Assembly: GCA_001898145.1 (NCBI GenBank) | Contig: MKSR01000041.1 | Coordinates: 1 to 64,000, forward strand | Direction: 5' to 3' | Origin: Dyadobacter sp. 50-39 | GTDB taxonomy: Bacteria > Bacteroidota > Bacteroidia > Cytophagales > Spirosomataceae | Length of the DNA: 64,000 bases | In this document: positions 26,083 to 42,462 of the stretch, piece by piece | Numbering within the stretch: the first letter of the stretch is position 1 | Layout: each line of letters begins with the position of its first letter | Made by a program: the position numbers and the translations under genes | Notes under the pieces: generated by a model | The model's input: the letters and a program-made list of their open reading frames with translations, nothing else | Database searches by the model: none | What the model was told of the DNA's origin: nothing

Positions 26083-27132
26083 ATGAAGAACGTATTCAGG
26101 TTCCTGACGGCTTGCACTCTCCTATTCTGCTCCTGTCACACCGATCAAGTCTCCCCGGAGACACCCCCGGCTTACAATTTTGACACAGTAGACAAATTCC
26201 TGGAAGCACACCTTGCCGACTACAACGATCAGGTGATCGTGCTGGTTTCTCAAAATGGTAAGCTGATTTACAAAAAGGGGTTTGGCCTGGACGAACACAC
26301 CAGTAAACCGATCGCATCGGCCACCAAATGGCTTTCCGCGGCCGTCATACTGAGCCTTGTCGATGAAGGCAAACTGTCCCTTTCCGACAGTATCGGCAAG
26401 TTCCTGCCGATATTTACTGCCCGCCAAAAAGGACATGTGACCATCCGGCAGCTGTTTGCGCATACAGCAGGATTCGGAGGCGACTCGCCTCAAAAGTACG
26501 AGTACAAGCGGCTGATGTCGCTCGCCGAGGCGGTGGATTCCATTGCCCTGTATACGCCGCTGGTAAGCATCGCCGGCACCCAATTCGACTATGGCAGCGC
26601 CGGAATGCAGATCGGCGGAAGGGTTGCTGAAATCGTGTCAGGCAAAAAATGGCAGGATTTGTTTGAGCAGCGCGTTGCCCAGCCTTGCGGGATGACGGCC
26701 GAATATCGTTCCGTTCGCAATCCGATCATCGCAGGCGGTGTGCACACCACCGCTGCCGACTACCTGAAATTCCTGGAAATGCTGGTTAACCATGGTACCA
26801 GTAACGGGCATCGGGTGCTCAGTGAAAACGCGATCGAGGCCATGTTTAGTGACCAGACAGAAAATGCAAAAATCACCGGGACACCCTATCCTACCAATCC
26901 TTTCTCACCAACGCCCCAGAGACCGGTCCGTTACGGAGTCGGCAACTGGCTCGATGTAGTCGATGTCGATGGCCGTGTATTGGAAAGCAGCAGTCCCGGG
27001 CTGTTTGGCACGCACCCCTGACAGGATTCAAAGCATCAAATCGCAGGTATTATTTTCACCCAGACTACGCCCAGACAGAGTACTAGGACCAGCCTGGAAA
27101 TCCGCAAAATGATCAGGGATATTGTGGAATGA
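26083..27132 (+). pseudogene. Serine hydrolase (beta-lactamase-fold lipoprotein), interrupted by one in-frame TGA
   Basis: The lipoprotein signal (TLLFCSC) is followed by a class C beta-lactamase/transpeptidase-like fold: S-x-x-K in ASATKWL (Ser79, Lys82), Y-x-S in FDYGSAGM and a late SPGLFGTHP. The first stop is TGA at 27019-27021. The same frame then continues with clean coding sequence for 36 more codons (DSKHQIAGIIFTQTT ... MIRDIVE) to TGA at 27130. The family has Trp after SPGLFGTHP, so a TGG-to-TGA change explains the stop. The product would lack its last beta strand and helix. Sequencing error or readthrough are alternatives. Confidence 0.8.
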
Positions 27133-27195
27133 ACGCTTGTTGCTAACCGTTTACACCTGCTTGCATAGAAAACAAGTCCGCCTCGGAGCCTTTGT

Positions 27196-27246
27196 GCAGC
27201 TATGTGACTCTGGTCACACAGCTGCACTAGCAATTTTGTAAATTTG
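27196..27246 (+). promoter_or_regulatory. Crp/Fnr-type operator and -7 box of the regulator gene
   Basis: TGTGA-CTCTGG-TCACA at 27203-27218 matches the Crp/Fnr consensus exactly. It sits inside a 30-base near-perfect palindrome (27196-27225, one mismatch between arms). After 20 bases comes TAAATTTG (27239-27246), an exact TAnnTTTG box. The gene starts 25 bases further on. The layout suggests autoregulation. Confidence 0.75.
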
Positions 27247-27271
27247 CTGCATTCCCAATGATCTCATAAAC

Positions 27272-27925
27272 ATGAACCTACAAACCGAGCAAGCTGCAAT
27301 AAGCCAATTCCTGCAAACCCATTTTAGCCAATTTGACCCGGAGCTGGCCAAAAAGCTTGCCCAACACAGCATCTTGCGGGAATTTGAAAGTGATGAACAG
27401 TTAATGCGACCGGGGCAATATTTTAAATCCACGATGCTGATCGTGGAGGGAGGTGTAAAGCTATACCGGGAAGACCATGATGGCAATGAGTTTTTTATTT
27501 ACCAGCTAGGCCCCGGCAATGCCTGCGCATTATCAATGATCTGCGCGACAAAAAAAGAACAGAGCCAGATCTCGGCCAGGGCAGTAGAGCCCACCAGAGC
27601 AATACTGGTCCCGATCGCATTGATGGATGAGCTGATGACAGGCTATAAAAGCTGGTACTATTTCGTATTGGAAACCTACCGGTCCCGGTTTGAAGAACTT
27701 CTGTTGGTTGTAGACAGTATTGCTTTTAGAAGCATGGACGAAAGGCTGGAATTTTACCTTAAAAACCAGCAGAAACTCCTGAACAATGATGAGATAGCAA
27801 TCACCCACCAACAAATTGCAACCGATCTGAATTCATCCAGGGAGGTTGTATCCCGCCTGCTAAAAAAGATGGAACAAAGAGGAATGCTCCGGCTTGGCAG
27901 AAACACGATCAAAATAATCAAGTGA
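27272..27925 (+). CDS. Crp/Fnr-family transcriptional regulator of the sulfur island
   Basis: 217 residues: an N-terminal cyclic-nucleotide-like sensor barrel (FESDEQLMRPGQYFKSTMLI, EGGVKLYREDHDGNEFFIYQ), a long dimerisation helix, and a C-terminal winged helix (ITHQQIATDLNSSREVVSRL). The N-terminal cysteines of FNR-type iron-sulfur sensors are absent; two cysteines in GNACALSMICAT lie within the barrel and could react with persulfides, which is an inference. It is the first gene before the persulfide dioxygenase operon, and its own promoter and three nearby promoters carry similar operators, so it is the probable local regulator. Confidence 0.9.
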   Translation: MNLQTEQAAISQFLQTHFSQFDPELAKKLAQHSILREFESDEQLMRPGQYFKSTMLIVEGGVKLYREDHDGNEFFIYQLGPGNACALSMICATKKEQSQISARAVEPTRAILVPIALMDELMTGYKSWYYFVLETYRSRFEELLLVVDSIAFRSMDERLEFYLKNQQKLLNNDEIAITHQQIATDLNSSREVVSRLLKKMEQRGMLRLGRNTIKIIK

Positions 27926-28130
27926 GGACAATTCGCATCTGTAACCGCAACGGGAAATACCAGCACCGGATCGGCCCTATTTGGGTGACGGCAAAAGCGG
28001 GCCGATGTGCAATCACGTGTCCAGCGACATGTCCAAAGCCCTATACAAACGCTAGAATAGCAAGCTGATTAACAGCACGTTCCAAATCCCAAGATCTATC
28101 CGATTTACTTTATCTGGAAATTTGCCCTTA

Positions 28131-28175
28131 CGTGACAAATATCACTGACGGGCTCGCCTCCCATTCCGAAATTTG
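28131..28175 (+). promoter_or_regulatory. Crp/Fnr-type operator and -7 box of the persulfide operon
   Basis: CGTGA-CAAATA-TCACT at 28131-28146 is followed after 21 bases by GAAATTTG (28168-28175), which differs from TAnnTTTG only in its first base. The ATG of the dioxygenase lies 34 bases downstream. From 27926 to 28130 the leader holds one 8-bp stem (ATCGGCCC at 27970 with GGGCCGAT at 27999) but no gene. Confidence 0.7.
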
Positions 28176-28209
28176 TATCATTCTTTAAGAAAAACAAACA
28201 AGGAAGGTT

Positions 28210-29631
28210 ATGCGAATCGAACAAATCTATACAGGCTGTCTGGCACAGGGCGCCTATTACATTGAAAGCAACGGTGAGGCAGTAGTTATCGACCCCCTTC
28301 GCGAGGTCGAACCGTATATCAAACGGGCCCAAAAAGACGGGGCAAAAATCAGGTATGTTCTTGAAACGCACTTTCACGCTGATTTTGTCTCCGGCCACAT
28401 TGACTTGGCTGAAAAAACGGGCGCGCAAATCATATTTGGCCCCACCGCCAAGCCGGGATTCCCAGCCCATGTTGCACAGGATGGTGAAGTGCTGAAAGTA
28501 GGTAGTGCTACAATCAAAGTGCTGCACACCCCAGGGCATACGATGGAGAGTACCTGCTTTCTTCTTTCCGATGAAAATGGAAAGGATATCGGGCTTTTTA
28601 CCGGCGATACTCTATTTATCGGGGATGTCGGCCGTCCGGACCTGGCGCAAAAGGTCGTGGCAGACCTTACCCAGGATAAACTGGCCCGGCATCTGTACCA
28701 TTCACTGCGCAACAAGATCATGCCGCTTTCCGATGATATCATTGTCTATCCGGCCCACGGCGCAGGCAGCGCCTGTGGTAAAAATATGAGCAAAGAGACA
28801 ACCGATACACTAGGCAATCAGAAACTGTTCAATTATGCGCTGCGCGCGGATATGACCGAGCAGGAGTTTGTGAAAGAAGTAACTGACGGACTGATGCCTC
28901 CGCCTGCATACTTCCCCGAAAACGTAATGATGAACATCAAGGGGTACGAAAGCATCGATACGGTACTCGAACGTGGAAACGCAGCGCTCGATCCCGATGC
29001 CTTTGAAGCCGCCGCCAATGAAACCGGCGCGCTACTGCTGGATACCCGTGATGCCGGCGTCTTTGCCCAGGGATTTATACCCAATTCGATCAATATAGGG
29101 ATTGATGGCAGTTTTGCCCCTTGGGTTGGTGCGATGATTCCCGATATCAAACAGAAAATACTGGTCATTGCCGACCAGGGCAGAGAAGAAGAGGTCGTAA
29201 CCAGACTGGCAAGGGTCGGCTACGATTACACAATCGGTCATCTCAAAGGCGGTTTTCAGGCCTGGAAAAAGGCAGGAAAGGAAACAGATCGTATAGAATC
29301 GGTAACGGCCATCGAAATGGCCGAGCGTCTCAAAAAGGTCCCTTCCCTGATCGTGCTTGATGTACGCAAGGCAAGTGAGCACTTTTCCGAGCATGTGATC
29401 GGTTCCGAAAATATACCGCTGGATTACCTGAATGACCACCTGGCTGAGATCGGCAAAGATAAAACCTATCTGGTCCACTGCGCCGGAGGGTACCGTTCGA
29501 TGATTTTCAATTCTATCCTCAAATCAAGGGGATACGACAATCTGATCGACGTTCAGGGAGGCTTTAAAGCCATTAAAGAATCAGGACTTGTGCCGGTAAG
29601 CAATTACGTATGCCCGAGTACCATGTTGTAG
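28210..29631 (+). CDS. Persulfide dioxygenase-rhodanese fusion (CstB-like)
   Basis: 473 residues in three domains. The N-terminal metallo-beta-lactamase domain (about 1-250) has the persulfide-dioxygenase motif ETHFHADFVSGHIDLA (His54, His56, Asp58) plus HTPGHTMES and TGDTLFIGDVGRPDL; non-haem iron would oxidise persulfides to sulfite. A first rhodanese-like domain (about 255-355) lacks the catalytic cysteine: the loop reads ADQGREEEV. The second (about 360-470) keeps it in VHCAGGYRS. This layout is that of CstB, which releases thiosulfate from persulfide and sulfite. It is the first gene of a seven-gene run and is preceded by a Crp/Fnr-type operator. Confidence 0.93.
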   Translation: MRIEQIYTGCLAQGAYYIESNGEAVVIDPLREVEPYIKRAQKDGAKIRYVLETHFHADFVSGHIDLAEKTGAQIIFGPTAKPGFPAHVAQDGEVLKVGSATIKVLHTPGHTMESTCFLLSDENGKDIGLFTGDTLFIGDVGRPDLAQKVVADLTQDKLARHLYHSLRNKIMPLSDDIIVYPAHGAGSACGKNMSKETTDTLGNQKLFNYALRADMTEQEFVKEVTDGLMPPPAYFPENVMMNIKGYESIDTVLERGNAALDPDAFEAAANETGALLLDTRDAGVFAQGFIPNSINIGIDGSFAPWVGAMIPDIKQKILVIADQGREEEVVTRLARVGYDYTIGHLKGGFQAWKKAGKETDRIESVTAIEMAERLKKVPSLIVLDVRKASEHFSEHVIGSENIPLDYLNDHLAEIGKDKTYLVHCAGGYRSMIFNSILKSRGYDNLIDVQGGFKAIKESGLVPVSNYVCPSTML

Positions 29632-29668
29632 ATACTGGGTATCTCTATCAAAAGAAAAAAATAAACTT

Positions 29669-29974
29669 ATGGGAATCTTATCATCATTATTCGGATCAAA
29701 AAGTTTGGATTACAAAACCCTTGTTCAGCAAGGGGCACTTGTTGTCGATGTTCGCTCTGCTCAGGAGTTTGCGGCAGGGCATATTCCAGGGAGCATCAAC
29801 ATTCCCCTGGATCAGATCAATGCAAAGGCGGATATGCTGCTCAAAAAAGGCAAACCGGTAATTACATGCTGCCGGAGTGGCTCAAGGAGCGGCATGGCCG
29901 AAGGCATGTTGAGATCTGCCGGCATAGACGCCTACAACGGAGGCGCATGGGAGAGCCTCAAACAGAAAATGTAA
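29669..29974 (+). CDS. Single-domain rhodanese (sulfurtransferase)
   Basis: 101 residues forming one rhodanese domain: [20 protein letters not shown], then the active loop [14 protein letters not shown] with the catalytic cysteine (the second of the pair by alignment). It probably carries sulfane sulfur between the persulfide dioxygenase and downstream acceptors in the cytoplasm. No signal peptide is present. It starts 37 bases after the fusion enzyme and ends 16 bases before the first transporter half. Confidence 0.9.
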
Positions 29975-29990
29975 ACTACGAAACATTGAC

Positions 29991-30554
29991 ATGCTGGATA
30001 TAATCAAGCAACCGTGGCCCTGGTATGTAGCAGGGCCACTTATCGGCCTGACTGTGCCCGCCCTGCTCATTCTCGGCAACAAGTCATTTGGGATATCCTC
30101 TTCATTGAGGCATGCCTGCGCCGCGTGCATGCCGGCCAAAATTCCCTTTTTTCAATATGAATGGAAAAAAGAAACCTGGAACTTGGTATTCGTGCTGGGA
30201 ATATTTTTGGGAGGAATGGTTGCCTCCCACTTTCTGGCCAATCCCGCGCCAATCAAGGTAAATGAAACCCTGGCAAAAGAGCTGGCAGCTTACGGCATAA
30301 CGGACTTTTCGGCAATGGTACCCCTTGACATTGTGAGCTGGGAAAAACTATTCACGGTTTCTGGCGTGATCATGATGGTTGGCGGAGGCTTTCTGGTAGG
30401 ATTTGGGGCTCGCTACGCCGGAGGATGTACGAGCGGGCATGCCATTATGGGGCTGTCCACATTACAATGGCCATCTCTGGTAGCTACAATCTGTTTTATG
30501 ATTGGAGGATTTGTGATGGCTAACTGGATATTGCCAATCATTCTCAATTTGTAA
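29991..30554 (+). CDS. YeeE/YedE-family sulfur-compound transporter half
   Basis: 187 residues with about four to five membrane helices ([58 protein letters not shown]). The diagnostic loop [13 protein letters not shown] holds the cysteine that handles thiosulfate in YeeE. Full-length YeeE has two such halves; here the second half is a separate gene at 31180, with a methyltransferase gene between them. The two products would pair to form the channel. N-terminal cysteines ([10 protein letters not shown]) may add a sulfur relay. Confidence 0.88.
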
Positions 30555-30555
30555 T

Positions 30556-31179
30556 ATGATAGATGACACATTAAGAACACATTGGGAGGATGTATATAGA
30601 ACCAAACAATCCGACCAAATGAGCTGGACGCAGCCCAGGCCAGACACTTCCCTGACCTTGATAGACGCCTTGCAACTCGATAAAAACGAGCCCATCATTG
30701 ACGTTGGTGGCGGAGAAAGCAGGCTGGTTGACTACTTGTTACAAGAGGGCTTTACAGATATTACCGTTCTGGATATCTCACAAAGGGCGATCGATCGTGC
30801 AAAGGCCCGACTAGGCCCGTTATCAGACCGGGTAACCTGGATTGTCATCAACGTTCTGGATTTTATTCCATCGCGAGCCTATCGGGTTTGGCATGACAGA
30901 GCTACATTTCATTTTTTGACTGGTAAGCACGACATCGAAAAGTATGTCGGAATCGTTGAAAAATCCGTCATTGGAGGAGACCTGATACTGGGTACTTTCT
31001 CGATGGATGGTCCGGTAAAATGCAGTGGATTGCCCGTTAAACAATACGATCGGAGCTCGATTCAGCAAGTTTTCGGCCAAAGTTTCCGGTTGGCCACAAG
31101 CGCTCACGTAGATCACATAACTCCATTCGGTACCAGTCAGAGCTTTATATTTTCAAATCTCAAAAAAAAGCCGCAATAA
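30556..31179 (+). CDS. Class I SAM-dependent methyltransferase in the sulfur operon
   Basis: 207 residues with the Rossmann methyltransferase core: HWEDVYRTKQSDQMSWTQ at the start, motif I PIIDVGGGESRLVD, the acidic ribose-binding end ITVLDISQRAID, and DRATFHFLTGK in the position of motif IV. It begins one base after the first transporter gene stops and ends immediately before the second one, so it is firmly embedded in the operon. Possible roles are methylation of sulfide, a thiol or another small sulfur acceptor; the substrate cannot be read. Similar methyltransferases occur near other thiol- and metalloid-handling genes. Confidence 0.85.
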   Translation: MIDDTLRTHWEDVYRTKQSDQMSWTQPRPDTSLTLIDALQLDKNEPIIDVGGGESRLVDYLLQEGFTDITVLDISQRAIDRAKARLGPLSDRVTWIVINVLDFIPSRAYRVWHDRATFHFLTGKHDIEKYVGIVEKSVIGGDLILGTFSMDGPVKCSGLPVKQYDRSSIQQVFGQSFRLATSAHVDHITPFGTSQSFIFSNLKKKPQ

Positions 31180-31689
31180 ATGAGCAATTCGACATCTGAA
31201 ATAACCAAAGAGAAGGAACACCAGGTCCGCGCAACTGATGCGATGTGCATCAATGAAAGCAAGCAAAGTCACCAATGGTATTACAACTTCAAATATCTGA
31301 TTGTAGGTGTGTTGTTCGGCATTGTGTTTGTCAAAGCCGAAGTAATCAGCTGGTTCAGGATCCAGGAGATGTTCCGCATTCAGTCTTTCCACATGTACGG
31401 GATCATCGGCAGCGCAGTGCTGATAGGAGCGCTCTCTGTTTGGCTCATCAAGACCTTTAAAATCAAGACCATACATGGAGAAGAAATTACTTTCTCTGAT
31501 AAAAAATTCAACAGAGGACAAATTTATGGCGGGCTGACATTTGGACTGGGCTGGGGACTTACCGGCGCTTGTCCGGGACCCTTATTCGCCCAAATTGGTG
31601 TAGGAGCCACGGTGGTAATCGTGACCCTACTGAGCGCCATCGCCGGGACATGGGTATACGGGCGTTTCCGGGAGCAGTTGCCCCACTGA
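31180..31689 (+). CDS. YeeE/YedE-family (DUF6691-like) transporter half
   Basis: 169 residues. A 45-residue cytoplasmic N-terminus precedes about four membrane helices (LIVGVLFGIVFVKAEVI; MYGIIGSAVLIGALSVWLI; GATVVIVTLLSAIAGTWVY). The signature GLGWGLTGACPGPLFAQIG carries the family cysteine. It is the complementary half to the protein encoded at 29991. The ATG directly follows the methyltransferase stop, consistent with coupled translation. Confidence 0.87.
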   Translation: MSNSTSEITKEKEHQVRATDAMCINESKQSHQWYYNFKYLIVGVLFGIVFVKAEVISWFRIQEMFRIQSFHMYGIIGSAVLIGALSVWLIKTFKIKTIHGEEITFSDKKFNRGQIYGGLTFGLGWGLTGACPGPLFAQIGVGATVVIVTLLSAIAGTWVYGRFREQLPH

Positions 31690-31788
31690 CATTAACACTG
31701 AGGGGATGGGATATCAAATTAAATAAACCCGTCTCCCCTGACATTTTCAATCCATTTGGTAATCTTGTGACGAAAACTTCATTCAGTG

Positions 31789-31974
31789 ATGAAAAAAGCC
31801 TCAATCTTATATTCTTTTGCGGGCGTAGCGATCGGGGCAGTCCTGGGGTATTTATACTACCACTTCATTGGCTGCTCCTCGGGTACATGCCCCATTACTT
31901 CAAACCCTGCCAGCTCAACCGTGTATGGCGCTGTGATGGGCGGATTGTTGATCGGTTCAATAGCCAGAAAATAG
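31789..31974 (+). CDS. DUF6132-like small membrane protein with a CxxxxC motif
   Basis: From ATG 31789 a 61-residue protein with two short helices flanking the loop GCSSGTCPITSNP, which is the recognisable feature of this family. The two cysteines five residues apart suggest thiol or persulfide binding at the membrane; this is inferred. It lies within the sulfur operon between the transporter half and the sulfide:quinone reductase. A GTG three bases upstream is an alternative start. Confidence 0.8.
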   Translation: MKKASILYSFAGVAIGAVLGYLYYHFIGCSSGTCPITSNPASSTVYGAVMGGLLIGSIARK

Positions 31975-32037
31975 TCCGTAGCGTCATGGAAGGTTTCTGG
32001 AATGAAAGGTAGTCCCGTGAAGAATACATATACGGGA

Positions 32038-32054
32038 CCAGGCCCAACGCCTGG
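32038..32054 (+). other. Hairpin before the sulfide:quinone reductase gene
   Basis: CCAGGC and GCCTGG are separated by five bases; a further stem (GTCCCGT near 32012 with ACGGGAC near 32032) lies just before. There is no T-run, so a terminator is unlikely. Possible roles are mRNA processing or tuning of expression inside the operon. Confidence 0.35.
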
Positions 32055-32077
32055 TTCAAACACCAGTTGAATCTTAA

Positions 32078-33234
32078 ATGAAAAGCCATTGTCAAATATT
32101 AATAATCGGCGGCGCGGCAGGCATTATGACCGCCGCACAGTTAAAAGCCAGCAGGCGTTCGCTGGAAGTGGCCATCATAGAACCGTCCGCGTCTCACTGG
32201 CACCAACCTGCCTGGACGTTGGTCGGGGCGGGAAGCTATGACTTTGAGGAAACGAGAAGAAATGAAGCATCTTTGATTCCCTATGGCGCAGACTGGATTC
32301 AGAACCGGGTTACGGGGATATTCCCGTACCATAATGAGGTACAAACCACGCAATCGGGCTTTATACCCTATGATTACCTTATTGTCTCACCAGGGCTCCA
32401 GATAAACTCCGATGCCCTTCCCCAGCTAAAACAGGCTTTACTGACGGAGTCGATTTGCAGCAACTACATCGATCCTCAGAAAACCTGGGACGTTTTACAC
32501 AAATTCAAAGGGGGAAATGCATTATTTACCTTGCCTTCCACCCCTATTAAATGTGGTGGCGCGCCGCAGAAAATCATGTACCTCGCCGACGATCATTTTC
32601 GGAAAAGCGGCGTAAGAGGCAACACTAACGTTATTTTCGCCACTCCCGGGACCGTCATATTCGGAACGAAGAAGTTTGCCAACACACTGACCAAGGTGAT
32701 CAAAAGAAAAGATATCATTACCAGGTTCTTCTATGCTCCTGCCAGCATCGATCCCCTGAAAAGGAAGTCCGGTTCAGATACACCGGCCCTGAGGAATGGA
32801 AAGGCATCCCGGCCATCAACGAAAAGATGGGTCTGGATAAGCTGGTTACCGTGCCTTATGATATGCTGCACCTGGCGCCGCCGCAATCAGCCCCGGATTT
32901 TATCAGGGAATCGGTACTCGCTGTCGAGAATGGGGCCAATCAGGGTTGGCTGGATGTAAATATTCATTCCTTACAGCACAACCGCTTCCCGAATGTATAC
33001 GGTCTGGGTGATGTTGCCGCCCTGCCGACGGCTAAAACGGGGGCGGCTATCAGAAAACAAGCTCCGGTGGTAGTGTCCCATATTTTGTCGGAGCTGGGAG
33101 AAAAGTCCCAGCCGCAAATGTACCATGGCTATTCGTCGTGCCCCCTGGTAACGGGCTATGGCAAAATGCTGCTGGCCGAATTCAAATATGGCAACGAGCC
33201 TGGCAGCGATCCCTTCTTGAGATGTCACCGTTAA
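32078..33234 (+). pseudogene. Sulfide:quinone oxidoreductase, broken by a 1-base frameshift
   Basis: The FAD-dependent enzyme oxidises sulfide and passes electrons to quinone, yielding persulfide for the dioxygenase. Frame 1 (from 32078) has the FAD motif ILIIGGAAGIMTAAQLK and Cys in TPIKCGGAPQK. It goes out of frame at an AAAA run (32759-32762). The correct continuation lies in the next frame (VRFRYTGPEEWKG, VPYDMLHLAPPQSAPDF, GLGDVAALPTAKTGAAIRKQ, YSSCPLVTGYGK) to a stop at 33234. Adding one A at the run restores a full-length protein of about 385 residues. The change is either real inactivation, a slip in sequencing, or recoding. Confidence 0.88.
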
Positions 33235-33235
33235 A

Positions 33236-33268
33236 ATAATCCAGCAGGTTGCTGACCTGCCGGATTAT
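33236..33268 (-). terminator. Terminator between the convergent SQR and DsrE genes
   Basis: ATAATCC-x-GCAGGT pairs with ACCTGC-x-GGATTAT across five bases. The minus strand continues with T-rich sequence, so it fits best as the DsrE gene terminator and may act in both directions. Confidence 0.65.
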
Positions 33269-33335
33269 GCTTTGATGGACTTTGCTATCGTCCCATGTCG
33301 GCTTGATGATTGCTTTACACATTTTCGAAAAAAGA

Positions 33336-33791
33336 TCAGGGATGTATGTAAGCCCAGCCCTCGGCCTGGCGTATGATCAGCTCACCGTTGGCGCTGGGCG
33401 CAAATGAAACAAACGGCCACAGCTGGTCTTTGCCAATCTTTCTTTCCCGTAAGGTATTTTCGCATTGGACCAGTATTACCCCCTTATCCAGTAATGCCCT
33501 AAGTTCAGCTTCATAAGGGCCGTTGTTCGTGTAAAGCGCCACCCCGCCTCCATGCACGATCAACTCTATCTGTAACTTCCCTTTCAGGCGCGGATCATCC
33601 AGCGCGTTCTGGATGTTTTTCAGCGTCGCCTTTATTTTCTTCTCCTCCTCGGAATTAAGCTGATAAATCGCTCTGTACATCTTTTTTGTTGCCTGGGCAC
33701 CGTTGAATGTCAAAGGATCGGCCTTCTGTGCAATAGTTTTACACGAGAACGCCATCATCGTGGCCAGGCATGCGAGTCTGAATACTTTCAT
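33336..33791 (-). CDS. DsrE-family periplasmic protein
   Basis: From ATG 33791 a 151-residue exported protein with a signal peptide (MKVFRLACLATMMAFSCKTI) and a DsrE/DsrF-like alpha/beta domain (KLQIELIVHGGGVALY; LRALLDKGVILVQCENTLRE; RQAEGWAYIHP). The cysteine in VQCENTL is in the place of the sulfur-carrying cysteine of the family. It probably binds or relays sulfane sulfur outside the cytoplasm. A TTG start 60 bases upstream would put the Crp-type operator inside the gene and lose the clean signal peptide, so I rejected it. It has its own operator facing minus. Confidence 0.88.
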   Translation of the reverse strand: MKVFRLACLATMMAFSCKTIAQKADPLTFNGAQATKKMYRAIYQLNSEEEKKIKATLKNIQNALDDPRLKGKLQIELIVHGGGVALYTNNGPYEAELRALLDKGVILVQCENTLRERKIGKDQLWPFVSFAPSANGELIIRQAEGWAYIHP

Positions 33792-33814
33792 TTTGTCTGA
33801 TTGGTTTAAAGCCG

Positions 33815-33859
33815 CCAACTTATCCAAAAGCTGTATCACGCTTTGTGACAATTGTTACA
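33815..33859 (-). promoter_or_regulatory. Crp/Fnr-type operator and -7 box of the DsrE gene
   Basis: TGTGA-CAATTG-TTACA at 33844-33859 (read on the plus strand) lies 21 bases before TAAGTTGG (minus strand, 33822-33815), one mismatch from TAnnTTTG. The start codon is 23 bases beyond that box. Spacing equals that of the operators at 28131 and 34349. Confidence 0.65.
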
Positions 33860-33894
33860 TAACAGCGGGGATAACATGGTTAATTTTGCCAACG

Positions 33895-34193
33895 ATGATA
33901 AGAAAGACAAATCATATCCCCACTTATAATATTTGCAACCTAAATGGCCAGCAGGACACAGTCAAGGACATCACCGTTTATGACCTTCAATATTTTCTGG
34001 GCATCCGGATATGATTTTCCCTCACCGGCATTCGTTTTATCAGCTGTTATATATTTCGTCCGGTGCGGGGCGCCATGTCATTGATTTTGAGCAGTACGAT
34101 GTAGAACAAGGTTCCATCTATTTTCTTGCTCCCCGGCAAGTCCACCAATGGCTTTTTGATCATTCAACTCAAGGCTCTGGACGACCGTTTTGA
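33895..34193 (+). pseudogene. AraC-family regulator remnant
   Basis: An ATG at 33895 opens a frame resembling the N-terminus of AraC-type regulators (MIRKTNHIPTYNICNLNGQQ, ITVYDLQYFLGIR), which stops at 34014. The sequence resumes in another frame with FPHRHSFYQLLYISSGAGRH and GSIYFLAPRQVHQWLFD, the cupin-like sensor, and then stops at 34193. The two C-terminal helix-turn-helix motifs are missing altogether. At least one frameshift and a deletion separate it from a working gene. It may once have regulated the neighbouring exporter or DsrE genes. Confidence 0.7.
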
Positions 34194-34348
34194 TGCTTAG
34201 CAAAAGTGAGAATCTCAGAAAGCAAACCACAGTACTGGACAGCAAATACCTACTCATCAAAGGGTTATACTAAACAAAATAATCACACTAAACGCAGTAT
34301 AGCGATTTGAGGAAAAACAAACCTAGAAACAACGATGTAATGATCATA

Positions 34349-34393
34349 TGTAACATTTATCACTGACCAGGGCTTTTGCGGCAGGTACTTTTG
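34349..34393 (+). promoter_or_regulatory. Crp/Fnr-type operator and -7 box of the TauE gene
   Basis: TGTAA-CATTTA-TCACT at 34349-34364 is followed after 21 bases by TACTTTTG (34386-34393), an exact TAnnTTTG element. The exporter starts 30 bases further on. The implied position of the operator centre is about -42, the usual place for activation by contact with RNA polymerase. Confidence 0.7.
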
Positions 34394-34423
34394 CAGAGTA
34401 TTTAATTCAACAACTACTCAGAA

Positions 34424-35233
34424 ATGCAAACCTCAGAAGTTTTGGGATTTTCAGCCTCCATATTAATCGGGATAAGCCTCGGGCTGATCGGCGGGGGAGG
34501 CAGCATACTTACTTTGCCGGTGCTCGTTTACATAATGGGGATCAATCCGGTACTTTCAACGGCATATTCCCTTTTTGTTGTGGGCACGACTTCACTGGCA
34601 GGGTCATTCAATTTTATGCGCAAAGGGCTTGTCAACTACAAAGCCGCCCTTGTTTTTGCCGTTCCATCATTTGTCGCCGTATTTCTCACGCGAAAATACC
34701 TGGTTCCGATCATACCGGATTCGCTCTTTACGCTGGGCGGCTTTGAGGTAACTAAAAATACGGGGATCATGCTCTTTTTTGCCCTGGTGATGCTGGCTGC
34801 CTCTTATTCGATGATCAAGGAAGACAAGACAGAGCCCGAAGACGCCCGAGGTGAGCTGCAATTCAACTACCCGCTGATCGGACTCGAAGGAGGTGTTGTG
34901 GGGATACTCACCGGCATTGTTGGCGCGGGAGGCGGGTTTCTGATCATCCCGGCGCTGGTCTTATTGGCAAAACTGCCTATGAAGATGGCTGTTGGGACCT
35001 CGCTACTGGTCATTGCAGCGAAATCGCTGATTGGTTTTGCGGGCGATATTTCAAATACGACCATTGACTGGACTTTCCTTTTGGAATTTACATCGCTTTC
35101 AATAGCAGGTATCTTTCTTGGATCCTTTCTTGCCAAGTTTATTTCAGGTGAAAAACTCAAAAAATCTTTCGGCTGGTTTGTGCTCGTGATGGGTATCTAT
35201 ATCATTTCAAAGGAAATTCTTTTCAAATCGTAG
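34424..35233 (+). CDS. TauE/SafE-family (TSUP) sulfite or sulfur-compound exporter
   Basis: 269 residues with eight predicted membrane helices in two repeats. Each repeat begins with a glycine-rich segment (GISLGLIGGGGSILTLPVLV; GGVVGILTGIVGAGGGFLII), as in TSUP transporters. The likely cargo is sulfite or another sulfonate-like anion generated by the persulfide dioxygenase, by family and context. It is preceded by a Crp/Fnr-type operator and stands 190 bases upstream of the dihaem cytochrome gene. Confidence 0.9.
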   Translation: MQTSEVLGFSASILIGISLGLIGGGGSILTLPVLVYIMGINPVLSTAYSLFVVGTTSLAGSFNFMRKGLVNYKAALVFAVPSFVAVFLTRKYLVPIIPDSLFTLGGFEVTKNTGIMLFFALVMLAASYSMIKEDKTEPEDARGELQFNYPLIGLEGGVVGILTGIVGAGGGFLIIPALVLLAKLPMKMAVGTSLLVIAAKSLIGFAGDISNTTIDWTFLLEFTSLSIAGIFLGSFLAKFISGEKLKKSFGWFVLVMGIYIISKEILFKS

Positions 35234-35425: not shown

Positions 35426-36493
35426 ATGATATCTCCCGATGATTCCGTTGTTAAATTAATCCGCTCATTGAAGCTGCTTACGGGTCTTTTAGCCGTTGTT
35501 TTCGGGTTGTTTTCCGTGTTTTTGCTTGTTGTACTGTTCGGCAAGCCCGAGCCTGGTCCGGATCAAGCCGCCGGTGAGAAATTAACCGAAACCAAGACGG
35601 CCGACATAGCCCGCCTTATGCCGTGGAAGGGTCCGTCTGAAAGCGATCTTTCAAAGCTTACGCCAGCCGAGCAGCAAATGGTCAGATACGGGAAAGAGCT
35701 GATTGTCCATACATCGGATTATCTCGGCCCCAAAGGCAGTGTAAAACACCTCTCGAATGGAATGAATTGCCAGAACTGCCATCTGGATGCCGGCACCAAA
35801 CCTTGGGGAAACAACTATTTTGCCGTAGAAGCTACTTATCCCAAGTTCAGGGCACGGTCTGGGAAAATAGAAACCCAGGCCAAACGGATCAACGACTGTT
35901 TTGAGCGAAGCCTGAACGGAAAGGGCCTGGATGAGCAAAGCAATGAAATGCGGGCCTTGCTGGCCTATATGAAGTGGCTGGGGACAGGTGTTCCGCCGAA
36001 ACAAGCACCTGATGGCATTGGGATCTATAAAATGAATGATCTTGACCGAGCCGCCGACCCGGTAGCGGGCAAAGCGGTATATGAACAAAAATGTCAGAGC
36101 TGTCATCAGCCTGCCGGAGAAGGTATGCTCGCCTCCGATGAAATACATTATTTATTTCCGCCTCTTTGGGGCAAGCACAGCTACAATACCGGTGCGGGGC
36201 TTTACAGGATATCCAATTTGGCTGGCTATGTGAAGGCGAACATGCCGCTCGGGGCTTCCTACGATGCGCCGCAGCTCACTGATGGGCAGGCCTGGGATGT
36301 GGCCGCTTTTATAAATTCCATGCCCCGCCCCCAGAAGGATCTGAGTAAAGACTGGCCCAATCCGGCAGATAAGCCCTTCGACCACCCCTTTGGCCCCTAT
36401 GCGGATCCATTTTCCGAAAAGCAGCATAAGTATGGCCCATTCAATCCCATAAAAGACTGGCAAAAGCGGCACAAGAATCTAGATGCCAGATAG
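35426..36493 (+). CDS. TsdA-like dihaem thiosulfate dehydrogenase / tetrathionate reductase
   Basis: 355 residues. One N-terminal membrane helix (LLTGLLAVVFGLFSVFLLVV, about 18-37) anchors two periplasmic cytochrome c domains. Haem motifs are CQNCH (115-119) and CQSCH (223-227). The segment RINDCFERSLNGKGL contains the cysteine (158) that in TsdA enzymes serves as the unusual axial ligand of the active haem, and LFPPLWGKHSYNTGAGLYRI matches the family's active-site region. The reaction would be joining two thiosulfates to tetrathionate, or the reverse. Thiosulfate is the expected product of the CstB-like enzyme, so this gene fits the island's pathway. Confidence 0.87.
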   Translation: MISPDDSVVKLIRSLKLLTGLLAVVFGLFSVFLLVVLFGKPEPGPDQAAGEKLTETKTADIARLMPWKGPSESDLSKLTPAEQQMVRYGKELIVHTSDYLGPKGSVKHLSNGMNCQNCHLDAGTKPWGNNYFAVEATYPKFRARSGKIETQAKRINDCFERSLNGKGLDEQSNEMRALLAYMKWLGTGVPPKQAPDGIGIYKMNDLDRAADPVAGKAVYEQKCQSCHQPAGEGMLASDEIHYLFPPLWGKHSYNTGAGLYRISNLAGYVKANMPLGASYDAPQLTDGQAWDVAAFINSMPRPQKDLSKDWPNPADKPFDHPFGPYADPFSEKQHKYGPFNPIKDWQKRHKNLDAR

Positions 36494-41130: not shown

Positions 41131-42462
41131 TTATAGATGTATCCGCAGATAGCGCTTGTAATAACTGATGTAGTAGTTGCTAAGGCTTTGCATGTACTGG
41201 TTTTGCACGGCCAACAGATCCTGGAATTTCCCAAGCCTTTCATCCAGACCGATGATCCCGCTCTCATACCGGTCGTTGGTGTGGCTGTCGCTGCTGCTTT
41301 GTAGCCCCATGATCACCTCCTGCCGTTTTAAGTCTTCCATGCTCTGCCTGTACTGGATTTGCAAGTTCTCATCTTCCTTTTGGGCCACGCGGGCCTGATT
41401 GTCTAATACCTGTTGCTGCTGATGGAGCTGTATTTGCGCCTGGGTGATTTTTTCCCTGGCAGATAGGCCGTTGAAAACGGGTATAGTGAGCTTGACACCC
41501 CAGAATTGCTGGGGTAAGTTATTGGCCGCCGACAAATTAAACATTTCATCGGTCGTCCAGTTGCGGTTGTATTGGTAACCCACAGAAAGGGAGGGATATG
41601 GCATCGACCTGCTTTGTGCGAGCTGCCGCTCATTCAGTTGCAGCTGCGCCTTGTGGACCTGCACAAGCGGATGAATAAGGTTGGCCCTTTCTTCTTCTTC
41701 TTTGCCGATGGGCTGCGGCGCAGACAGACCGCCGGAGAGTATAATCTGCTCGGAGGTATTCAATTGGGATTGAAACTGATTGTACAGCTGCGCCAACGAC
41801 GCCGAAAGATCTCCTGCCTGCTGGACGGCTTGAATGTGCTGGATTTCACTGCGATTAAGGTTTTCCACCGTAAATATGCTGGCTTCGTATTTGTCCCTAG
41901 CAATGCGGTAAATGCTGTCCGAGGCCGCGACATTGCCCCTCGCTATCCCGATATACCTTTCGGTAAGCAGGATGGAGTAATAGGTCTGCGCAAGCTGATC
42001 ATATAGCTGAAACCTGGCATTGCGAGTATTGGCCTCGCTAAGCTTTTGCGTCGCCATCGTGGTTTTCAAATCGAACCATTTTTGGAAATTGAGCACATCC
42101 CAGCTTGCTTGCACGCCCGTGCTGTACAGGTACCGCCTGCCGAAAGTATACTCATTAAAGGTCCCTTCGGGAGCCGCGGGATTGAACAGGCTGGCCGGAA
42201 CGAGCGTGGGCTGAAGTGTAAGGTTATCATTAAACCCGGCCGAAGCATTCACAACGGGAAGCAAAGCCCCTTTCGCCCCCCTGTTTTTTGAGGCTGCAAT
42301 CAGTTCCTGATTCCTTGCGCTTTGTATGCTCACCGCGTTCTGATCCGCAAAGCGGAACACGTCGTCGAGCGAGCTAAACCTGACCTGTGCCCTACCAGGA
42401 AAACCGGCGGAACAAAGAAGGAACAACAGGAGCATTAATTTTAAGTTTATCATCTTCAACAA
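41131..42462 (-). CDS. TolC-like outer-membrane channel of the MacAB-type system
   Basis: 443 residues with a signal peptide (LKLMLLLFLLCSAGFPGRAQ) and the two helical repeats of outer-membrane factors (VSIQSARNQELIAASKNRGA; LHQQQQVLDNQARVAQKEDE). It is the first gene of the unit, 11 bases before the adaptor. This is the second TolC-like gene in the window; its repeats differ from those of the RND channel at 19238, so the two are not recent copies. Confidence 0.9.
   Translation of the reverse strand: MLKMINLKLMLLLFLLCSAGFPGRAQVRFSSLDDVFRFADQNAVSIQSARNQELIAASKNRGAKGALLPVVNASAGFNDNLTLQPTLVPASLFNPAAPEGTFNEYTFGRRYLYSTGVQASWDVLNFQKWFDLKTTMATQKLSEANTRNARFQLYDQLAQTYYSILLTERYIGIARGNVAASDSIYRIARDKYEASIFTVENLNRSEIQHIQAVQQAGDLSASLAQLYNQFQSQLNTSEQIILSGGLSAPQPIGKEEEERANLIHPLVQVHKAQLQLNERQLAQSRSMPYPSLSVGYQYNRNWTTDEMFNLSAANNLPQQFWGVKLTIPVFNGLSAREKITQAQIQLHQQQQVLDNQARVAQKEDENLQIQYRQSMEDLKRQEVIMGLQSSSDSHTNDRYESGIIGLDERLGKFQDLLAVQNQYMQSLSNYYISYYKRYLRIHL

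Follow-up and report, generated by a model that had tools for sequence, protein, structure and literature searches.

The 64,000-nucleotide stretch analyzed here (the window) is contig 41 material from the 7.7 Mb genome of Dyadobacter sp. 50-39. It carries the gene of a Crp/Fnr-type regulator next to a set of sulfur genes, and before these genes lie palindromic operators, each followed at a nearly fixed distance by a promoter box of the form TAnnTTTG. We refer to such a site with its box 21 bases further on as a module. We consider with good confidence that the modules mark a predicted Crp/Fnr-type activator regulon of sulfur genes, an assessment that leaves the nature of the signal aside.

The regulator gene (27272..27925, plus strand) encodes a protein of 217 residues, whose effector domain contains C85 and C91 and whose recognition helix contains R190, E191 and R195. 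Its operator, TGTGACTCTGGTCACA (27203..27218, plus strand), is an exact match to the consensus, and the −7 type box TAAATTTG (27239..27246, plus strand) follows after 20 bases; the same spacer of 20 is found in D. endophyticus (locus L026). This operator sits within a longer inverted repeat (27194-27227) with 15-base arms, one mismatch, around TCTG. In D. jiangsuensis (locus L025) the repeat has zero mismatches.

Further along the plus strand, the operator CGTGACAAATATCACT (28131..28146) and, 21 bases past it, the box GAAATTTG (28168..28175) precede an operon that starts with a metallo-beta-lactamase (MBL)-fold/rhodanese protein of the persulfide dioxygenase-rhodanese type (28210..29631; MBL-rhodanese below). 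It continues with a rhodanese-like protein (29669..29974), a YeeE-type sulphur transport protein (Sulf_transp; 29991..30554), an S-adenosylmethionine methyltransferase (30556..31179) and a second YeeE-type protein (DUF6691 / Sulf_transp; 31180..31689). The methyltransferase gene, placed between both YeeE-type genes, is also present in the copy of the operon on contig 13. The SQR-like gene (32078..33234, plus strand) spans two reading frames and seems broken: the matches to an intact copy lie at 32078-32752 and 32845-33201 in different frames. An intact SQR-like open reading frame (ORF) with its own module is found on contig 46.

The gene of a DsrE-family protein is on the minus strand (33336..33791, counted from the ATG; the listed ORF begins at TTG 33851). 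The operator TGTGACAATTGTTACA (33844..33859), to which no strand is assigned, is usable in both directions. Toward the DsrE gene, 21 bases past the operator, lies the imperfect −7 type box TAAGTTGG (33815..33822, minus strand); on the other side, also 21 bases away, the perfect box TAATTTTG (33881..33888, plus strand) points toward the remnant of an AraC-type regulator. This remnant (34020-34175, between DsrE and TauE) is 48% identical over 52 amino acids to an intact regulator on contig 46, and a palindrome lies upstream of the latter. The initial annotation had assigned the site at 33844 to the DsrE gene. Its 21-base spacing stood; the box proved imperfect, with a better one on the opposite side. 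In D. endophyticus a site is followed after 21 bases by CAACTTGG before DsrE, which supports the assignment. Finally, the operator TGTAACATTTATCACT (34349..34364) and the box TACTTTTG (34386..34393), again with a 21-base spacer, precede a TauE/SafE family exporter (34424..35233), and a SoxA/TsdA-type cytochrome c (35426..36493) is possibly in one unit with it; these four features are on the plus strand. Going by family knowledge, we take the YeeE types and TauE to serve transport, SQR and MBL-rhodanese to oxidize, and rhodanese and DsrE to pass on sulfur. All four palindromes were found exactly where the initial annotation had placed them, and so were the boxes: TAAATTTG at 20 bases and, at 21, GAAATTTG, TACTTTTG and, on the minus strand, TAAGTTGG. 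Its statement that the four promoters share one spacing did not survive, since the spacer before the regulator itself is 20 bases long and a site there is not general.

We rejected the bare palindrome as evidence for a regulon: with up to two mismatches it was present 25 times in the window versus 24.5 expected, and across the order its tie to the regulator is weak. The two-motif arrangement behaved differently from the shuffled controls. A site (up to two mismatches) with TAnnTTTG (up to one) at 20-21 bases occurred 5 times in 27000-34500, counting both directions of the 33844 palindrome, versus a mean of 0.07 and a maximum of 2 in 300 dinucleotide shuffles. In the whole window there were 6, versus 0.72 and at most 3 in 60 shuffles. 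The sixth, at 41835 (spacer 20, box TAAATATG), may be due to chance.

The genome holds two close paralogs of the regulator (74% and 58% identity over the matched part) with recognition helices nearly identical to that of the window copy, together with four additional copies of MBL-rhodanese (71-88% identity). In all, this one genome has five MBL-rhodanese copies (71-100%) and three regulator copies; the MBL-rhodanese contigs include 41, 46, 47, 13 and 44. Five further loci, chosen by homology to the regulator or to the MBL-rhodanese or rhodanese proteins, had modules with the 21-base spacer: at C46 before MBL-rhodanese, TauE and SQR; at C47 before TauE, MBL-rhodanese and an unassigned ORF; at C13 before TauE, MBL-rhodanese and a short ORF without family match; at C10 before rhodanese; and at C37 before a YgaP-like membrane protein and before unassigned ORFs. 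No module was found at the C44 copy of MBL-rhodanese or the C1 copy of the regulator. For the C1-type regulator in four other Dyadobacter loci, the site is present with TAACTTAG at 21 bases. Thus the regulon comprises at least six loci, and we reject its earlier description as local.

The exact 16-mer TGTGACNNNNGTCACW occurs at 5 places in the genome, all of them sulfur loci (reversed control, 0). Allowing one mismatch gave 46 rows, which correspond to 31 distinct places. At ten of these, every one belonging to the six sulfur loci, a box with no more than one mismatch stands 21 bases away. Among the others, the site at 27203 is followed by its box after 20 bases; two-mismatch boxes stand 21 bases from C46:11456 and from C46:26682, the latter site before a SoxA/TsdA-type cytochrome; and one-mismatch boxes occur 20 bases from C6:148086 and 22 from C40:621769. 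The rest of the 31 places had no such box. Other stretches of this genome, 320 kb in total, had 30 sites (tighter consensus, up to two mismatches) and 0 modules at 21.

To follow the module beyond this genome, we used 80 regulator loci from other Bacteroidota genomes, the best 80 of 310 relatives. The window regulator and its counterpart in Dyadobacter jiangsuensis DSM 29057 share 100% identity, although a few promoter bases differ. A site with a box at 21 bases occurred 129 times, at 72 of the 80 loci, versus 0-15 times for each of the remaining spacings between 5 and 45. The peak was visible both in Dyadobacter (37 modules) and in other genera (92). The genes behind the 129 modules were MBL-rhodanese (52), TauE (48), regulator (7), SQR (3), rhodanese (3), YeeE (2) and other genes (10), with no clear ORF behind 4; sulfur genes lay downstream in 108. 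The module is thus found before sulfur genes in related genomes, as the initial annotation had suggested looking for. For MBL-rhodanese and TauE, the outcome was the same when the genes rather than the box served as the anchor. Among those of their promoters that had a site with no more than three mismatches, an exact NAnnTTTG lay at 21 bases in 44 of 60 for MBL-rhodanese (1 at other spacings from 10 to 32) and in 44 of 51 for TauE (2 at the other spacings). In the same gene-anchored count, a site of their own was rare for the YeeE, rhodanese and regulator genes. Only 15 of the 80 regulator genes had an upstream site (up to two mismatches, 350 bases), 13 of them in Dyadobacter, and we rejected autoregulation as a general feature. 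The shuffles, the same-genome background and the cross-genome spacing together uphold the earlier claim that the two motifs are unlikely to be so arranged by chance, and on these three grounds we rejected a chance origin.

As a control for the choice of loci by regulator, we searched for MBL-rhodanese genes in 194 genomes of the order; they were present in 134 (E 1e-100). Sixty-nine upstream stretches were scanned, namely the 29 loci returned by the search outside the own genome and 40 hand-chosen remaining matches. They were classed by regulator score (at least 177 bits, weaker, and a last group) with limits of 177 and 130 bits that were set after the scores had been seen. With up to three mismatches in total at 21 bases, the module lay before MBL-rhodanese in 15/19, 10/14 and 1/36 cases, respectively. 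When two second copies in regulator-bearing genomes were taken out of the last group, its count was 1/34 (Fisher p 9e-9 vs 15/19). All four misses in the highest class had the module at the regulator locus instead: G086 and G190 have it before TauE, each with three mismatches in the site; in G160 it is perfect and precedes TauE and a distant MBL-rhodanese; and G014 has it before the regulator. A module with site AATGACGAAAGTCATT and box TATATTTG lies before the TauE/MBL-rhodanese gene set of G041 (L235, position 6059, minus strand).

The box TAnnTTTG is the −7 box of the housekeeping sigma factor and lies at −12 to −5 in a start-site map of Flavobacterium psychrophilum (PMC9723704). With this placement and a spacer of 21, the site would occupy −49 to −34 and be centred at −41.5; at the regulator promoter, with its spacer of 20, the centre would be at −40.5. 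At class II promoters of E. coli, the site of CRP or FNR has its centre at −41.5. A predicted site centre near −41.5 together with a core −7 box is thus what a class II promoter would present, in line with the earlier estimate of about −42 as a position fitting activation. Predicted leaders, computed from the coordinates, are 21 (regulator), 30 (MBL-rhodanese), 19 (DsrE) and 26 bases (TauE). Mismatches in the box fall at −12 in 66 of 116 distinct modules, and the spacer between site and box is near random in sequence. The module alignment contained no further conserved upstream element; there was an A-rich stretch around −60. The one-base precision of the spacing, the mismatches at −12, the A-rich stretch and the lack of another upstream element in the alignment fit an activator that contacts the polymerase.

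The regulator scored above the cut-offs of the Crp/Fnr superfamily domains PF00027 (39.7 bits; cut-off, 27.5), PF13545 (39.9; 27) and PF00325 (27.1; 21). A predicted structural model (pLDDT 82.6, pTM 0.60; weakest at 144-152) matched only ordinary CRP-fold chains, with E values down to 4e-15 and TM scores of 0.46-0.60 among the matches listed. By the NCBIfam models, the protein is neither CRP proper (NF008732; 45.2 bits vs 266) nor NtcA (TIGR03697; 32.5 vs 244.95). The cAMP-contacting residues of CRP are presumably absent. The translation has no FNR-type N-terminal iron-sulfur cysteines, as the initial annotation had noted; C85 and C91 are its sole cysteines. Both are invariant in 81/81 rows of the close-family alignment, and the search patterns used for the relatives did not contain them. 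In 133 wider matches C85 was present in all and C91 in 115. The invariance of the pair adds weight to the idea of cysteine sensing.

R190, E191 and R195 are likewise invariant in these 81 rows and match the residues that recognize TGTGA in E. coli CRP. Divergent relatives often have V at position 191, and the sites change with it: E191 goes with GTGAC half-sites and V191 with GTAAC. At least one GTGA half-site was present in 121/125 modules at E191 loci vs 2/14 at V191 loci, and both exceptions are in G072, which has an E191 regulator at another locus. Fisher's test gave 7e-11, a value inflated by near-copies. In an 86-row tree, residue 191 changed at least three times (exact placings are unsure, and some branches are long), once in G141, whose regulator is 56% identical to that of the window. 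These separate switches argue that the co-variation is not a product of kinship. It is the strongest evidence that the regulator family itself very probably reads these predicted sites.

At the level of sequence statistics, then, the fixed spacing of the predicted modules, their target genes, their dependence on the presence of the regulator and their co-variation with residue 191 are established, and the spacing, co-occurrence and co-variation back in silico the earlier proposal of a Crp/Fnr regulon of sulfur genes. We propose that the regulator and its close paralogs would bind TGTGAC-N4-GTCACW centred at −41.5 (class II), in place of a −33 element. The bound regulator would bring the housekeeping RNA polymerase of Bacteroidetes to a −7 box whose first base is degenerate (nAnnTTTG), and transcription would start about 5 bases past the box. 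Binding probably activates rather than represses, and it would switch on genes for the uptake, oxidation and detoxification of sulfide, persulfide and thiosulfate. We give even odds to a sulfane-sulfur species as the signal, with C85 and C91 as the residues it would react with. The wider proposal, of a Bacteroidota Crp/Fnr subfamily that senses sulfane sulfur via C85-C91 and activates instead of repressing, a persulfide sensor built on the CRP scaffold, with copies of regulator and target operons multiplied in Dyadobacter and an operator code changed at least three times by way of a single residue, is tentative and falls slightly short of an even chance.

Several observations weigh against the proposed activator regulon. 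In the MBL-rhodanese control, any of ten other spacings also passed the three-mismatch limit in 10/19, 2/14 and 1/36 cases. That limit is loose where a site is near perfect; with two mismatches, the class with the highest scores gave 13/19 at 21 vs 2/19 at the ten other spacings. G041 has its module and no regulator match at E 1e-30; another Crp/Fnr protein perhaps serves it. The exact 16-mer was found in 39/194 genomes of the order, 9/21 of those whose regulator scored at least 177 bits and 30/173 of the others, so that the bare 16-mer is weakly tied to the regulator. The module is missing from 8/80 regulator loci, 2 of which have MBL-rhodanese, and the regulator itself, present in 22/296 sampled genomes of the phylum (E 1e-50), is far from universal. 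A site before the regulator gene is found mainly in Dyadobacter, and in the window the regulator promoter deviates with a 20-base spacer. The DsrE box is imperfect and the perfect box next to the 33844 site points the other way; the placing at −12 to −5 derives from another Bacteroidota class; and C91 is lost in 18/133 wider matches.

Among the alternatives, the likeliest accepts the regulon and its geometry with a different signal, such as redox state, oxygen, nitric oxide, thiosulfate, sulfite or a nucleotide, C85 and C91 being structural or metal-binding. The 18 wider matches that keep C85 without C91 suggest that the pair is not essential to the wider family, whereas the targets handle sulfide and persulfide and both cysteines are invariant within the close family; we regard another signal as quite possible. 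It is rather unlikely that another Crp/Fnr paralog is the main activator at these sites and the window copy a minor one. The paralogs at 74% and 58% identity, with nearly the same recognition helix, may share the sites; co-occurrence and co-variation concern the same family, so that this alternative alters only which copy acts. A repressor that leaves the promoters upon reaction with a sulfur species, like SqrR and CstR, would agree with the persulfide regulators named in passages of PMC12170894 and PMC9918477, most of which are repressors (SqrR, CstR, CsoR). A repressor needs no single-base spacing, however, and the site is placed ahead of the −7 box, where activators classically sit, with the box weakened at −12, which makes repression improbable. 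That the modules are copied promoter DNA or chance matches of no regulatory meaning, as the frequency of the loose palindrome and the common ancestry of orthologous promoters might suggest, is hardly credible given the near-random spacer between conserved ends, the same module before different gene types, its absence without the regulator and the co-variation with residue 191.

The activator regulon would be a candidate class II regulon of the Crp/Fnr type that uses a Bacteroidetes promoter, and its regulator a candidate persulfide-gene regulator for Bacteroidota. Since the Bacteroidota box differs from that of E. coli and the class II geometry is nevertheless exact to the base, it may provide a test system for activation in the phylum. 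The natural switch between E191 and V191, with its change of half-site, offers a clean experiment on the specificity of DNA reading. In the literature searched, whose coverage is limited by variant spellings of Crp/Fnr and by subscription papers, we found no description of such a regulon or of a Bacteroidota persulfide-gene regulator. In passages of PMC12170894 and PMC9918477, the regulators named for sulfur oxidation are SqrR, CstR, CsoR, FisR, NreBC and thiol sensors of the OxyR and MarR type, none of them as Crp/Fnr.

Among known systems, and as far as the sources consulted go, SqrR/BigR/YgaV (ArsR), CstR/CsoR-like regulators and FisR also control SQR, persulfide dioxygenase and rhodanese genes, several through cysteines; they belong to other protein families, SqrR and CstR repress, and FisR works with sigma-54. 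The sigma-A promoters of F. psychrophilum share TAnnTTTG at −12 to −5; they differ in the lack of a Crp/Fnr site, with 0 occurrences of crp and fnr as terms in the text of PMC9723704. PDB 3dv8, a Crp/Fnr family regulator of Eubacterium rectale, was the best match both by sequence and in Foldseek and has C-x-L-S-x-x-C, aligned to C85-C91. Its identity is 22% in the Foldseek alignment, and the record names no function or signal. With E. coli CRP and FNR, the regulator shares the fold and helix-turn-helix, the TGTGA-type half-site, the centre at −41.5 and the R-E-x-x-x-R residues. It differs from both in using TAnnTTTG instead of TATAAT, in scoring far under the NCBIfam CRP cut-off (45 of 266 bits) and in its sulfur targets, and from FNR in its lack of N-terminal cysteines of that type.

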